A stretch of 64,000 nt of DNA, taken from NCBI GenBank assembly GCA_949299135.1, contig CASFZG010000006.1, forward strand, positions 1 through 64,000. Direction: 5' to 3'. Positions 3,075-27,487 of the stretch are shown in pieces. The notes beneath the pieces were generated by a model, which saw nothing but the letters and a program-made list of their open reading frames with translations, did no database searches and was not told the origin of the DNA. The number at the start of each line of letters is the position of its first letter. The stretch's first letter is position 1. The DNA comes from an uncultured Phascolarctobacterium sp. (lineage in GTDB: Bacteria > Bacillota > Negativicutes > Acidaminococcales > Acidaminococcaceae). The position numbers and the translations under genes are program-made.

Positions 3075-6000
3075 ATGTCCGGAAAATTTACACATCTGCA
3101 CGTCCACACGCAGTACAGCCTGTTGGACGGCGCTTCTAAAATAGATTTGCTGCTGGCGCGCGCCAAAGAGCTTGGCATGGACAGTATTGCCATTACCGAC
3201 CACGGCGTTATGTACGGTGCTGTCGATTTTTACCAGCAGGCGCAAAAAATAGGCATTAAGCCGATAATAGGCTGTGAGGTTTATATAACGGAATCGCGGT
3301 TTGACCGCAGCCAGCGCGGCGGCATTTACCATTTGATTTTGCTGGCGGAAAACAACACCGGTTACCACAATTTGATGAAGCTGGTTTCACTGGGGCATTT
3401 GGAAGGTTTTTATTACAAGCCGCGTATTGATAAGGATATTCTGCGCAAGTACAGCGAAGGGCTGATTTGCCTGAGCGCGTGCGTGGCAGGCGAAGTGCCG
3501 GTTAAAATTTTGCAGCGCGATATTGACGGCGCGGAACGTGCGGCGCAGGAATATATTGATATTTTCGGTAAGGAAAATTACTTTTTTGAAATACAGGACC
3601 ACGGACTGGACGAAGAACGCATTGTTGACCGCGAATTAAAACGCATGGCGCAGAAGTTCGGCGTCGGCCTTGTGGCGACCAACGACCTGCATTACGTTAT
3701 GCGCGAGGACGCAGAGGCGCAGGACGTTTTGCTTTGCATTCAGACAGCGAGCACGGTGGACGACCCTAAGCGCATGAAGTTTGCCAACGACCAGTTTTAT
3801 TTAAAAAGCTATGACGAAATGGCAGAGCGCTTTGCCGATTGCCCTGAGGCGTTGGAGAATACCGTTAAAATTGCTGAGCGCTGCAATGTGACGCTGGAGT
3901 TTGGGCATTTGCTGCTGCCGGAGTTCCCGATACCGGGTGAATTTGCCAATGCCACGGAATACCTGCGCAGCCTGTGCATGCAGGGTTTGCCTGCGCGTTA
4001 CCCCAATGCGGATGAAAAAGTAATGCAGCGTTTGGATTACGAGCTTGATATCATCGACCGCATGGGTTACAGCTGTTACTTTTTGATTGTGTGGGATTTT
4101 ATCAATTACAGCCGCCAGAACGATATCCCGGTCGGTCCGGGGCGCGGCAGTGCGGCGGGCAGCATTGTGGCGTATCTGCTGGGCATTACCAACATCGACC
4201 CGCTGAAATACGATTTGCTTTTTGAACGTTTTTTGAACCCGGAACGCGTAAGCATGCCGGATATTGATACTGATTTTTGCTACGTGAACCGCGGGCGAGT
4301 GCTGGATTATATCATCAAACGCTACGGCAAGGAGCGCGTGGCGCAGATTATTACCTTTGGTACCTTGCAGGCACGTGCCGCCGTGCGTGATGTAGGGCGC
4401 GCGCTGGATTATACCTACGGCTTTGTGGACAATGTTGCCAAAATGATTCCGCGCGAGCTGGGCATTACGCTGGAAAAAGCGCTGGAAACGAGCAACGATT
4501 TTAAAGCGCTGTACGACAGCGATGAAAAAGTGCGCCGCCTGATTGACATTGCCAAAAAGGTTGAAGGCATGCCGCGCAACAGCGGTACGCATGCTGCAGG
4601 CGTTGTAATTACGCCGCGCGATTTGATTGACTGTGTGCCCTTGCAGCTGTCAAACGAAGGTCTTGTCATTACGCAGTACGATAAGGATAAAGTTGAAAAC
4701 CTCGGCTTGCTCAAAATGGATTTGCTGGGGCTGAGGACTTTGACCGTTATCGGCGACGCGGTACGTTATATAAAAGAAACAACCGGCGAAAAAGTTGATA
4801 TCGAAAACATCCCGCTGGACGACGACGCTACCTGCGCCATGCTGCGGCGCGGCGATACGCAGTGCGTGTTCCAGCTGGAATCCGAGGGCATGACCAAGCT
4901 GGTTATGGATTTGGCGCCGGAAAAATTCAGCGATTTGATTCCGCTGGTGGCGCTGTACCGCCCCGGTCCGCTGGGTACAGGCATGGTAGAAGATTTTATT
5001 GAAGGCAAGCACGGCACGCGTACGGCGGAAATGCTGCACCCGCTGCTGGAGCCTGTTTTAAAAGATACCTTCGGCGTTATCCTGTATCAGGAACAGGTTA
5101 TGCAGATAACATCCGTGCTGGCGGGCTTTACGCTGGGTCAGGCTGATATTTTGCGCCGCGCAATGGGCAAAAAGAAAGCCAAAGAGCTGGACAGCATGAA
5201 GCAGAAATTTATCGACGGTGCGCGTGAAAACCACGGCATCAACGAAGAAACCAGCAAGCAGATTTTTGCGCTTTTGCAGCATTTTGCCGGTTACGGCTTC
5301 AATAAATCACATTCGGCGGCGTATGCGCTGGTTGCTTACCAGACTGCATATTTAAAACAGCACTGGCCGACGCAGTTTATGGCGGCATTTTTGTGCAGCG
5401 TTATGAACGACAACGATAAATTAAGCTGGTATCTGGGCGTTACCAAACGCATGGGCATTAAAATTTTACCGCCGGACGTTAACGAAAGCGGCAAGGAGTT
5501 TTCACCGGTTAAGGGCAACGCTATCCGTTTCGGTATGGCGGGTATTAAAAGCGTGGGCGAACAGGCGATTGATGCTATTATCAAAGCGCGTGAAAGCGGC
5601 GGGCGTTTTACGTCGATACTGGATTTCTGCCGCCGCGTACCGTCACGCCTTATCAACAAGCGTGTGATTGAAAATCTTATTTACTGCGGCGCAATGGATT
5701 CCTTCGGGGCTAAACGCTCGCAGCTGCTTGCTGTTTACGAGCAGGCTTCCGATTTGGGCAGCGCGTACCAGAAGGATTCTGCCAGCGGGCAGTTAGGTTT
5801 GTTTGGCGACGATATGTTTGAAGAAGTGCAGGATATTAAACTGCCGCAGCTTGATGAAATGCCGAAGCGTCTGCTTTTGGAAAACGAGAAGAAAATTGTC
5901 GGTTTTTACGTAACAGGCCATCCGCTTGATGCGTATGCCGGGGCGCTGGCAAACTACACGCCGGTGTATAAATTAAACGAAGCCGATGAAGCCAGCAGCG

Positions 6001-6476
6001 ACAAATTCTTTAAGGTGGCGGGGCTTATCAGCGAAATGCGCCTGCGTACCACAAGGCGCGGCGATACAATGGCAGTTTTAACGCTGGAGGATTTCAGCGG
6101 CAGGCTGGAAGTTGTTGTGTTTGCGCGCCAGTACCATGATTATATGCGCTTTTTGGTTAAGGAAAACGTAGTTGTGATAGAAGGGCGCTTGAAGGTTGAC
6201 GAACGCGGCTCATCCTTGCAGGCAACTGCCGTGCGCCAGCTTAACGAAACCGGCGCGGATATTCATTTGAGAATTACGCCGGACAAGGAAACGGGCGCAG
6301 TGCAGAAGGAAATGCGCCGCATTTTTGCCATGTACCACGGCAGCACGCCGCTGTACCTGCATTTGCTTTCTTCCGGCAAAACCATTAAAACCGACCGCTG
6401 CTTCTGGATTGATGCCGGTGCGGAAGGGTTTTACAAGGAAATTACCGCACTGCTGGGGCCGGGCTGTCTGCAATAA
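3075..6476 (+). CDS. dnaE: DNA polymerase III alpha subunit, DnaE type
   Basis: The 1133-residue protein is a bacterial family C DNA polymerase. An N-terminal PHP domain (LHVHTQYSLLDG near residue 8) is followed by the palm/fingers region. The catalytic aspartates are visible in P395-D-I-D-T-D-F, and the third is D549 in K-M-D-L-L-G-L-R. GPGRGSAAGS lies near residue 355. An OB-fold nucleic-acid binding domain follows near 975-1060. The length agrees with DnaE1/DnaE3-type enzymes. A PolC-type replicase is also encoded in this window (23801-27487). In Firmicutes carrying both, PolC is the main replicase and DnaE extends primers or helps in lesion bypass. AAGGAG precedes the ATG. Confidence 0.96.
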   Translation: MSGKFTHLHVHTQYSLLDGASKIDLLLARAKELGMDSIAITDHGVMYGAVDFYQQAQKIGIKPIIGCEVYITESRFDRSQRGGIYHLILLAENNTGYHNLMKLVSLGHLEGFYYKPRIDKDILRKYSEGLICLSACVAGEVPVKILQRDIDGAERAAQEYIDIFGKENYFFEIQDHGLDEERIVDRELKRMAQKFGVGLVATNDLHYVMREDAEAQDVLLCIQTASTVDDPKRMKFANDQFYLKSYDEMAERFADCPEALENTVKIAERCNVTLEFGHLLLPEFPIPGEFANATEYLRSLCMQGLPARYPNADEKVMQRLDYELDIIDRMGYSCYFLIVWDFINYSRQNDIPVGPGRGSAAGSIVAYLLGITNIDPLKYDLLFERFLNPERVSMPDIDTDFCYVNRGRVLDYIIKRYGKERVAQIITFGTLQARAAVRDVGRALDYTYGFVDNVAKMIPRELGITLEKALETSNDFKALYDSDEKVRRLIDIAKKVEGMPRNSGTHAAGVVITPRDLIDCVPLQLSNEGLVITQYDKDKVENLGLLKMDLLGLRTLTVIGDAVRYIKETTGEKVDIENIPLDDDATCAMLRRGDTQCVFQLESEGMTKLVMDLAPEKFSDLIPLVALYRPGPLGTGMVEDFIEGKHGTRTAEMLHPLLEPVLKDTFGVILYQEQVMQITSVLAGFTLGQADILRRAMGKKKAKELDSMKQKFIDGARENHGINEETSKQIFALLQHFAGYGFNKSHSAAYALVAYQTAYLKQHWPTQFMAAFLCSVMNDNDKLSWYLGVTKRMGIKILPPDVNESGKEFSPVKGNAIRFGMAGIKSVGEQAIDAIIKARESGGRFTSILDFCRRVPSRLINKRVIENLIYCGAMDSFGAKRSQLLAVYEQASDLGSAYQKDSASGQLGLFGDDMFEEVQDIKLPQLDEMPKRLLLENEKKIVGFYVTGHPLDAYAGALANYTPVYKLNEADEASSDKFFKVAGLISEMRLRTTRRGDTMAVLTLEDFSGRLEVVVFARQYHDYMRFLVKENVVVIEGRLKVDERGSSLQATAVRQLNETGADIHLRITPDKETGAVQKEMRRIFAMYHGSTPLYLHLLSSGKTIKTDRCFWIDAGAEGFYKEITALLGPGCLQ

Positions 6477-23800: not shown

Positions 23801-26800
23801 ATGAAGGCTAAATATTGCATTATCCCCGATACAGCCAAGTTTTTTGAATTTTTAGCCGGATTGTCCTTGACGGAGTCAGACCTTTTGCATACCCGCCTTA
23901 TCCGCCCGCTGAAAATTCTGGTGGATGTTGAAGGGGCGGAATGGGAAATTGAGTATAAGGCTGCTGCTCCGGTTGAAGAAAGGCTTACTTTGGCAGTGGC
24001 AGAAAAACTTGCCGCTGCTTTTTCTTTGCACGGCGGCGTTAAATTTACCTGCTGCAATGCGGAGGTAAATACCAAAACGGCAGTTAACGGAAAGGCGAAG
24101 GCGGACGAAGTGCCGCTGCCGCCAGAACCGCAGGAAGAAACGGAATTTGTTGTAACCGATTGCAGCGGCCAGCCCGTGCCAGAGGAAATACCTCTGCCGG
24201 AAGAACCGCCGCAGAACGATTTGGAAGGTTACACCTATGACGAGCAAGGCAGCTGCGGTAGTGAGGCTGATGCCGAATTTGCCAAAGCATACGAACTTTT
24301 GTACGGCAACGGCAAAAAAGATGATAATCTGCTGTGGGGCAAGCGCATTAAAGGCAAGCCGCGCCCGCTGGATGACATTACCGAAGACGAAAACAACGTT
24401 GTTGTGGAAGGCCAGTTTGTAAAATGCTTCGATAAGGACGGCGTGCTGACTTCGTTTAATGAGCGCGAGCTGCGCACCGGACGCATTAAGCTGACCTTTA
24501 ATTTAAGCGACGATACCAACGGCATTTACGTTAATATGTACTTTGATACGCTGGAAGAATGCCATAAGTTTAAGGGCAGCATCAAGCCGGGCGTTTACCT
24601 GCGAATTATGGGCGACGCAAGACGCGACCGTTATGCCTTTGAGGAGATGGCGATTGAGCCGAAGGGCATTATGCGTATTGAAAAAGAAGAACGCATGGAT
24701 AACGCCGAGGTTAAAAGGGTAGAACTGCACTGCCATACCAAGATGAGTAAGCTGGACGCTCTGACGCCTATGGAAGATTTGGTTAAAAAGGCAATCAAAT
24801 GGGGGCATAAGGCGCTGGCAATTACCGACCACGGCGTAGTGCAGGCATTCCCGTTCTGTTATGACGCCGCCGAAGGCAGCGATTTGAAGCTGATTTTCGG
24901 CATGGAAGGGTATCTCATCAGCGACAGCGGTGTTGAAGGCGCCGATATTGAACCGACGGATAGCCTGAAACCCAAACGCGGCAAAAAAACGCCGCTTGAC
25001 CATATTATCATTCTGGCTAAAAATGAAACCGGACTGCGTAATTTGTACAAACTGGTTACACTGAGCCATTTAAAATATTACAACAACCGCCCTGCACTGC
25101 CGCGCGCCATTATTCAGGAGCACCGCGACGGTTTGATTTTGGGTTCTGCCTGCGAAGCGGGTGAGCTTTACCGCGCCGTAAGGGCAGGCAAGAGCGACGA
25201 AGAACTGATGAAAATAGCATCGTTCTATGATTATCTGGAAATTCAGCCGTTGGGCAACAATATGTACCTGGTGCGCGAAAATAAATGTACCATTGATGAT
25301 TTGAAGGCTTACAACCGCAAAATTTACGAGCTTGGCAAACAGATGGGCAAAATGACCGTTGCTACCTGCGACGTGCATTTCTTAAACCCGGAAGACAGTA
25401 AGTTCCGCACAATTTTGCAGGGCGTGCAGCATTACCGCGATGCTGACGAACAGCCGCCGCTGTATTACCGCACGACGGAAGAAATGCTGGCGGAATTTGA
25501 ATATCTCGGCAAAGACGTTGCTTACGAAATTTGCGTAACCAACCCGAATAAAGTTGCCGATATGGTTGATAAAATTAAGCCGGTGCCTGACCGCGATCAG
25601 CTTTATTCTCCTTCGATACCGGGCGCGGTGGAAGCGCTGCCACAGATGGTTTACGACAAGGCGCACGAATGGTACGGCGACGAGCTGCCGGAAATTGTAG
25701 AAGAACGAATTAAAACAGAACTTCATTCCATTATCAGCAACGGTTTTGCGATTTTGTACTACATTGCGCACAAGCTGGTGCGTAAATCACTGGACGACGG
25801 TTATCTGGTAGGTTCCAGGGGGTCGGTAGGTTCATCATTGGTTGCTACGCTGATTGACATTACCGAAGTTAATCCGCTGGCGCCGCATTACCGTTGCCCC
25901 AAATGCCGTTACAGCGAATTTTTTACCAATAACGAATATGCTTCCGGCTTCGACCTGCCGGAGAAAGACTGTCCGCACTGCGGAACACCGATGTGGCGCG
26001 ACGGGCACAACATTCCGTTTGCCGTATTTCTTGGCTTCCACGGCGACAAGGTTCCTGATATCGACCTTAACTTCTCCGGCGAATATCAGCCGGTGGCGCA
26101 TAAATACACCGAAGAACTGTTCGGGCGCGATAATGTTTGCCGCGCCGGTACGATATCGACGGTGGCAAGCAAAACCGCCTATGGTTATGTGCGCAAATAT
26201 TATGAGGAAAAGGGGCTGACCAAACACCCGGCATTTATGGCGGGTCTTGTTGAAGGCATTGCCGGGCTGAAACGCACAACGGGCCAGCATCCGGGCGGCA
26301 TTATGGTTGTGCCGCGCAACATGGATATTCATTACATCACGCCGATGAACCATCCTGCCGATGAAAAAGACAGCCCGACGGTAACGACACACTTCGATTA
26401 CCATTCTATCAACGACAGGCTTGTTAAGCTTGATATACTCGGACACGATGACCCGACGGTTATCAAGCTGCTGGAAGAATTTACGCATATCAAGCCGACC
26501 AAAATTCCTATTGGCGACGAAGCCACGATGTCTATCTTCCGTAATACGGAAGCACTGGGCGTAACACCGGACCAGATTAACAGCAGCGTCGGCACATACG
26601 GCATACCTGAATTTGGTACACGCTTTGTACGCCAGATGGTTGAGGACGTACAGCCGAAAAACTTCGGCCAGATAGTGCGCGTATCCGGTTATTCTCACGG
26701 TACGGACGTATGGCTGAACAACGCGCAGGATTTGATTAAGGAAGGCAAGCCGCCTGAAGATACCATCGCCACGCGCGACGACGTTATGAATAATCTTATC

Positions 26801-27487
26801 GCCATGGGCGTTGAGCCGAGCCTAGCGTTTAAAACGATGGAATATGTGCGTAAGGGCAAGGCTGCCAAAAACGGATTAGAGCCGAAAATGCTGGAAGCTA
26901 TGAAAGAAGCGGGCGTTCCGGAATGGTTTAAAAAATCGTGCGAAACGGTTAAATATCTGTTCCCAAAAGCACACGCCATTGCTTATGTTTTGATGGCTTA
27001 CCGCATTGCTTACTGTAAGGTGCATTACCCAAAAGAATTTTACGCCGCATATTTCAGCGTGCGCGCGCCGGAATTTGACGCAACCTATATCGCCAAGGGC
27101 AAAGAATACATGAAGCGTTTTATTAAAGACGTGTATGCTCAGGGCGGCAAGGCCAACAACAGGGATAAGGATACCGTAACGTATCTTGAACTTGCGGTTG
27201 AGATGATGGAACGCGGCTTTGAATTTGAGCCGATTGATTTGTATAAATCACATGCTACGCGCTTTTTGCCTACGGAAAAAGGCGTGCGCATACCGCTCGG
27301 CGCGTTAAGCGGCATCGGTACGGCGGCAGCGTTAAGCATCGACGAAGCACGCAAAACGGGCGTACCGTTCATCTCTCAGGAGGATTTGCGCGTACGTTCC
27401 AAAGTATCAAAATCGGTAATCGATAAACTGGCAGAGTACGGCACCTTAAAAGACCTGCCGGAAAATGACCAGATAGATTTGTTTTAA
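23801..27487 (+). CDS. polC: DNA polymerase III PolC-type, lacking the exonuclease domain
   Basis: The 1228-residue protein is a PolC family replicase. After a ~190-residue N-terminal region comes an OB fold (about 195-300), then the PHP domain from H310-C-H312-T-K-M-S, a polymerase core with G-S-R-G-S-V-G-S-S near 670, a zinc finger with two C-x2-C pairs near 700-725, and the catalytic P752-D753-I-D755-L-N. In Bacillus PolC (about 1440 residues) a DnaQ-like 3'-5' exonuclease of ~170-190 residues is inserted in the PHP domain. Here only ~33 residues (367-400) separate F-G-M-E-G from D-H-I-I-I-L-A-K-N-E. The shorter length fits loss of that domain, so proofreading must come from elsewhere. Confidence 0.95.
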   Translation: MKAKYCIIPDTAKFFEFLAGLSLTESDLLHTRLIRPLKILVDVEGAEWEIEYKAAAPVEERLTLAVAEKLAAAFSLHGGVKFTCCNAEVNTKTAVNGKAKADEVPLPPEPQEETEFVVTDCSGQPVPEEIPLPEEPPQNDLEGYTYDEQGSCGSEADAEFAKAYELLYGNGKKDDNLLWGKRIKGKPRPLDDITEDENNVVVEGQFVKCFDKDGVLTSFNERELRTGRIKLTFNLSDDTNGIYVNMYFDTLEECHKFKGSIKPGVYLRIMGDARRDRYAFEEMAIEPKGIMRIEKEERMDNAEVKRVELHCHTKMSKLDALTPMEDLVKKAIKWGHKALAITDHGVVQAFPFCYDAAEGSDLKLIFGMEGYLISDSGVEGADIEPTDSLKPKRGKKTPLDHIIILAKNETGLRNLYKLVTLSHLKYYNNRPALPRAIIQEHRDGLILGSACEAGELYRAVRAGKSDEELMKIASFYDYLEIQPLGNNMYLVRENKCTIDDLKAYNRKIYELGKQMGKMTVATCDVHFLNPEDSKFRTILQGVQHYRDADEQPPLYYRTTEEMLAEFEYLGKDVAYEICVTNPNKVADMVDKIKPVPDRDQLYSPSIPGAVEALPQMVYDKAHEWYGDELPEIVEERIKTELHSIISNGFAILYYIAHKLVRKSLDDGYLVGSRGSVGSSLVATLIDITEVNPLAPHYRCPKCRYSEFFTNNEYASGFDLPEKDCPHCGTPMWRDGHNIPFAVFLGFHGDKVPDIDLNFSGEYQPVAHKYTEELFGRDNVCRAGTISTVASKTAYGYVRKYYEEKGLTKHPAFMAGLVEGIAGLKRTTGQHPGGIMVVPRNMDIHYITPMNHPADEKDSPTVTTHFDYHSINDRLVKLDILGHDDPTVIKLLEEFTHIKPTKIPIGDEATMSIFRNTEALGVTPDQINSSVGTYGIPEFGTRFVRQMVEDVQPKNFGQIVRVSGYSHGTDVWLNNAQDLIKEGKPPEDTIATRDDVMNNLIAMGVEPSLAFKTMEYVRKGKAAKNGLEPKMLEAMKEAGVPEWFKKSCETVKYLFPKAHAIAYVLMAYRIAYCKVHYPKEFYAAYFSVRAPEFDATYIAKGKEYMKRFIKDVYAQGGKANNRDKDTVTYLELAVEMMERGFEFEPIDLYKSHATRFLPTEKGVRIPLGALSGIGTAAALSIDEARKTGVPFISQEDLRVRSKVSKSVIDKLAEYGTLKDLPENDQIDLF

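Follow-up and report, generated by a model that had tools for sequence, protein, structure and literature searches.

PolC-type DNA polymerases III that lack the DEDDh exonuclease domain (Exo) were described by Timinskas et al. (2013; PMC3919608), who found them in Clostridia and Negativicutes, as 6% of PolCs and 16% of PolC+DnaE1 systems; in the part of that paper which deals with them, they have no Exo insertion, a DnaE1 partner and a conserved PHP metal site. Canonical PolCs (Geobacillus PolC, 3F2B; the solved PolC 9QPC) combine OB, PHP, polymerase, zinc finger and HhH regions and a clamp motif with an Exo of about 213 residues, carried within a loop of the PHP domain. Active PHP exonucleases are defined by nine metal ligands, HHDHEH[C/H]DH (PMC12926913). 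In G. kaustophilus PolC one of these is mutated and the PHP domain has no exonuclease activity; in Mycobacterium tuberculosis, the PHP domain of DnaE1 is the replicative exonuclease (both PMC5636811).

The window (the whole 64,000-nt stretch of DNA analysed, from an uncultured Phascolarctobacterium sp., a gut-type bacterium of the family Acidaminococcaceae, class Negativicutes) encodes a PolC of the Exo-less group of Timinskas et al. (2013), with the features given for it above (Table 1). The protein passes the cut-offs of both NF001688 (1405 bits, cut-off 873) and TIGR01405 (1309 bits, cut-off 1043), the main aligned stretch beginning downstream of the Exo position. Pfam detects PHP, DNA_pol3_alpha, finger and HHH_6 domains, the order OB-PHP-Pol3-HhH followed by a C-terminal clamp motif is that of a PolC, and a K-L-D-I-L-G-H-D motif is also present. 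The best Foldseek match is G. kaustophilus PolC (3F2C/3F2B, 49% identity), with DnaE structures, including M. tuberculosis DnaE1, at lower ranks. Of the AlphaFold2 model, which is of moderate quality (built on 10 sequences; mean pLDDT 72.5, pTM 0.58, residues 701-812 poor), the PHP region alone was used, and the global rmsd to 3F2B carries no meaning.

Table 1. Features of the two replicative alpha subunit genes (positions in the window)
Feature	Position	Strand	Remarks
dnaE1	3075..6476	+	1133 aa, second replicative alpha subunit; PHP HHDHEHCDH; TIGR00594 1351 bits
polC	23801..27487	+	ATG start, 1228 aa; PolC-type DNA polymerase III alpha without embedded DEDDh exonuclease
PHP domain	24707..25420	+	about residues 303-540; Pfam, alignment; AlphaFold2 pLDDT about 80-95 over most
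Residual linker	24908..25000	+	residues 370-400 (31 residues); exact Exo insertion site; predicted disordered
Zinc-finger cysteines	25895..25981	+	C699, C702, C724, C727; invariant in alignment A2
Catalytic motif PDIDLN	26054..26071	+	residues 752-757; kept across aligned PolCs
C-terminal sliding-clamp motif	27461..27484	+	ENDQIDLF (core QIDLF); read from sequence, alignment

The gene lies in an ordinary chromosomal neighbourhood, the canonical locus, with cdsA-, dxr-, rseP-, ispG- and proS-like genes upstream and rimP-, nusA- and infB-like genes downstream (names from reading the translations). There is no sign of a PolC paralogue, PolC and DnaE1 being the only alpha subunits found in the genome. 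Some 17 kb separates the two genes, which share a strand; they are likewise near each other in two genomes of the same genus (G041, G168) and distant in another genome (G078). In a genome of the same family (G106, 96% complete), the polC match (C62:10143-12155) is broken by three stop codons (TGA once, TAA twice), and is either a pseudogene or the product of assembly errors.

The Exo inserted in the PHP domain, a PolC hallmark known to be missing in a minority, is absent here. The Pfam RNase_T model has no match in the protein even at E<=10, and an HMM trained on intact PolC Exo domains scores 1.8 bits against its whole length, which is noise; location of the Exo elsewhere in the protein is therefore rejected. 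The PHP ligands E369 and H401 are linked by 31 residues, against about 213 in Exo-bearing PolCs and 12-13 in most other Negativicutes. In the model, the linker at the insertion site (model residues 200-216, pLDDT <50) is the longest predicted-disordered part of the PHP domain. A sequence-only reading had already proposed that the Exo is missing, and Pfam, the Exo HMM and the E369-H401 gap all bear it out. The residue numbers it gave (366-370 and 400-405 for the flanking PHP segments, 1228 in total) are right, and a search for exonuclease motifs elsewhere in the protein, which it named as a possible refutation, found none. It also called the PHP domain, zinc finger and catalytic aspartates intact, in agreement with the presence of nine ligands, four cysteines and PDIDLN.

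That reading took the lack of the Exo for an oddity of one protein; it is instead the normal state in the class, and PolCs of this kind have been known from print since 2013. Among the matches listed for 300 Negativicutes genomes (97 genera), each PolC match begins beyond the Exo position, in frames of about 1120-1350 aa, the exceptions being a few cut by contig ends. In 70 Negativicutes genomes (48 genera), no frame with an RNase_T domain exceeds 1012 aa, and hence no Exo is embedded in PolC there. All 107 aligned PolCs without an Exo-sized insert, same genus included, share the Exo-less architecture (L113, in a wrong reading frame, is discounted).

Outside Negativicutes, a sample of the phylum spread over many families contains about 62 genomes with an Exo-less PolC, 40 with an Exo-bearing one and 1 with a relic, compared with the 6% of PolCs given by Timinskas et al. 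(2013); the sample was tallied by rows, and its counts are no measure of abundance. Exo-less examples include Moorella thermoacetica, Desulfosporosinus, Syntrophomonadaceae, Cuneatibacter and Oscillospiraceae, and Exo-bearing ones Halanaerobium, Fervidicola, Lutispora, Hathewaya, Eisenbergiella and Brevibacillus. About 30 of the 149 phylum-sample genomes have no PolC over threshold and are apparently DnaE-only. One PolC (L164, from genome G366) holds at the Exo site an 84-residue low-complexity insert rich in Ala, Pro and Glu, unrelated to the Exo.

The PHP domain of the Phascolarctobacterium PolC carries the full HHDHEHCDH set (H310, H312, D319, H344, E369, H401, C451, D524 and H526), and by the nine-ligand definition would count as an active exonuclease. 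Over the 146 aligned PolCs, this set is found in 107 of 107 without an Exo-sized insert, and in 35 of 39 with one. The other four read HHDHEHCNH, and the two of them displayed (L115, L139) are Bacilli-like; Fisher's test gives p=0.005 for the contrast, which is not independent evidence, since the four exceptions represent at most a few evolutionary events. Geobacillus PolC has G-N-V-H where this protein has C-D-V-H, and the G. kaustophilus site is imperfect where the present one is complete. The resemblance to M. tuberculosis DnaE1 extends to the nine-ligand set and to the loop beside the site (29 residues there, 31 here), although that enzyme is of the DnaE type, and its activity is experimental where that of the PolC is predicted. 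No PHP exonuclease activity has been reported for any PolC in the open-access papers searched. The DnaE1 of the same genome is a candidate second proofreader, judged from its ligands; the DnaE1 PHP site is intact in 30 of 30 sampled.

In this genome (98% complete, in 40 contigs, which leaves room for a gap) there is no match to DnaQ (TIGR00573) at E<=10, and none to the Pol I-type 3'-5' exonuclease (exo1). As no DnaQ was found and the PHP sites are intact, the most economical reading would make the PHP domain the proofreader, and proofreading by the PHP domain of PolC itself, together with that of DnaE1, following loss of the Exo, is the best explanation; we put its probability at about 0.65, the activity being predicted from the conserved ligands. 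Mis-incorporated 3' ends would be removed by the metal-dependent PHP 3'-5' exonuclease of PolC together with that of DnaE1, an activity established for mycobacterial DnaE1, and mismatch repair would act after PHP excision. The earlier expectation that the enzyme polymerises but does not proofread by itself is thus probably wrong, the nine-ligand set being complete. Of the two compensators then suggested, a stand-alone DnaQ has no match in the genome, while an active PHP nuclease would fit. Against PHP proofreading, intact metal ligands could be there for pyrophosphatase activity or for structure; they persist in 35 of the 39 Exo-bearing PolCs too, so that replacing the Exo is not the sole reason for their conservation.

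A division of labour is an unlikely alternative, and is compatible with PHP proofreading rather than exclusive of it. DnaE1, with an active PHP domain, would carry out accurate bulk replication, and loss of the Exo from an auxiliary PolC would be tolerated without replacement. The idea is raised for PolC+DnaE1 species in the portion of Timinskas et al. (2013; PMC3919608) concerned with them, and is in keeping with the intact DnaE1 PHP site in all complete cases checked and with the phylum-sample genomes that have no PolC at all. It sits less well with the retention of PolC throughout the class, clamp motif, catalytic residues and PHP ligands all fully conserved.

As a second alternative, a stand-alone DEDDh exonuclease might act as an epsilon subunit in trans. 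The genome encodes a single RNase_T protein (C2:49414-49920, 208 aa), whose gene precedes mutS (C2:51931-54465) by about 2 kb on the same strand, both outside the window; many relatives likewise carry at least one stand-alone DEDDh-fold protein, PRK06195-like proteins of about 190 aa being common in other members of the class. However, the Phascolarctobacterium protein resembles KapD (148 bits, under the 169 cut-off) and eukaryotic ERI1, not DnaQ, and five high-quality relatives whose PolC lacks the Exo, including a 4.8 Mb genome in a single contig, give no hit to RNase_T at E<=10. The PHP site is intact in PolC of all five, and in DnaE1 of the four of them examined. The PRK06195-like proteins form a clade separate from the PolC Exo (support 100), and so are not relocated Exo domains; transfer of the Exo to a separate gene is generally unsupported, and is possible only for four stand-alone proteins (L053, L054, L202, L203) with long branches and unresolved placement. 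Taken with these points, an epsilon subunit in trans seems improbable.

That replicative proofreading is altogether absent, with nucleotide selection and mismatch repair supplying fidelity, seems very improbable: MutS1 is present (in four of four genomes checked, this one included) and no DEDD-type proofreader was found, but the nine-ligand PHP sites are invariant across the class in both polymerases. An assembly or gene-model deletion has nothing in its favour and can be dismissed with near certainty, as the proposed alignment with Negativicutes relatives finds the Exo-less form in the genus (e.g., L090), in the family and in all PolCs of the class that were aligned.

Trees of the PolC core, built without the Exo columns and with an assumed root, imply by parsimony 7 to 10 changes of Exo state, of which well-supported branches force 4 to 5. 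Grouping all Exo-bearing PolCs in a single clade is rejected (AU test p=1e-41; second test p=5e-6), and with it, under the assumed root, a primitive absence of the Exo followed by a single gain. Dollo parsimony gives about 10 losses, a figure tied to the outgroup, which was picked on the ground that L115 shares 83% identity with Geobacillus PolC across 691 residues. Because the Exo insertion site is shared, repeated loss is the simplest reading, and the Negativicutes most likely lack the Exo through loss in their common ancestor. If PHP proofreading is correct, the Exo would have become redundant in organisms with both PolC and DnaE1, and then been lost repeatedly.

Intermediates are visible in one clostridial genus (g187, family f55). 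The PolCs of two of its species (L218, L220) carry 198-residue relics, identified as PolC Exo by their 36% identity (E=1.6e-36) with a relative's active Exo, in which the DEDDh motifs are gone by the motif patterns tested; that of a third (L219) has a 39-residue scar. In all three the PHP set is intact, the cores are 92-93% identical and RNase_T gives no significant match, and an active-looking Exo is retained by each of the 11 full-length family relatives examined. The dN/dS ratio is 0.35 in the relic against 0.10 in the core, so that constraint is relaxed, though not absent. In an unrelated genome (L312, uncultured Clostridiales RUG094), a full-length Exo (169 bits) reads VLSTVTTG, AAYDADME and MRAFPRA where the DEDDh motifs belong; its catalytic motifs are lost, and the PHP site is intact. 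This dead Exo runs contrary to a 2026 statement according to which the DnaQ proofreaders of Pol III alpha do not undergo inactivation. Loss may thus proceed from catalytic death through erosion to excision. The dead intermediates (L218, L220, L312) are not reported in the passage of Timinskas et al. (2013) on these enzymes.

For the wider proposal, that Negativicutes and several independent clostridial lineages dropped the DEDDh domain from PolC by way of dead or eroded relics still visible, and depend on PHP exonucleases alone, in some cases without any genomic DEDDh match, we see about an even chance. What is added here to the published Exo-less PolCs, within the open-access literature searched and with earlier reports possible, is their class-wide extent, their frequency over Clostridia families, the RNase_T-free genomes and the Exo relics; what is new is that Exo-less PolCs recur in scattered lineages and that decay of the Exo is under way in one clostridial genus.

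The decay series shows intermediate steps of Exo loss, and corrects the impression that the DnaQ domain of PolC never becomes inactivated. Exo-less PolCs are a natural experiment on the exchange of proofreaders in a replicase, and Negativicutes without an RNase_T match offer a clean background in which to test proofreading by the PolC PHP domain. PolC is an antibiotic target, and the identity of the nuclease that edits for it would bear on nucleoside-type inhibitors.
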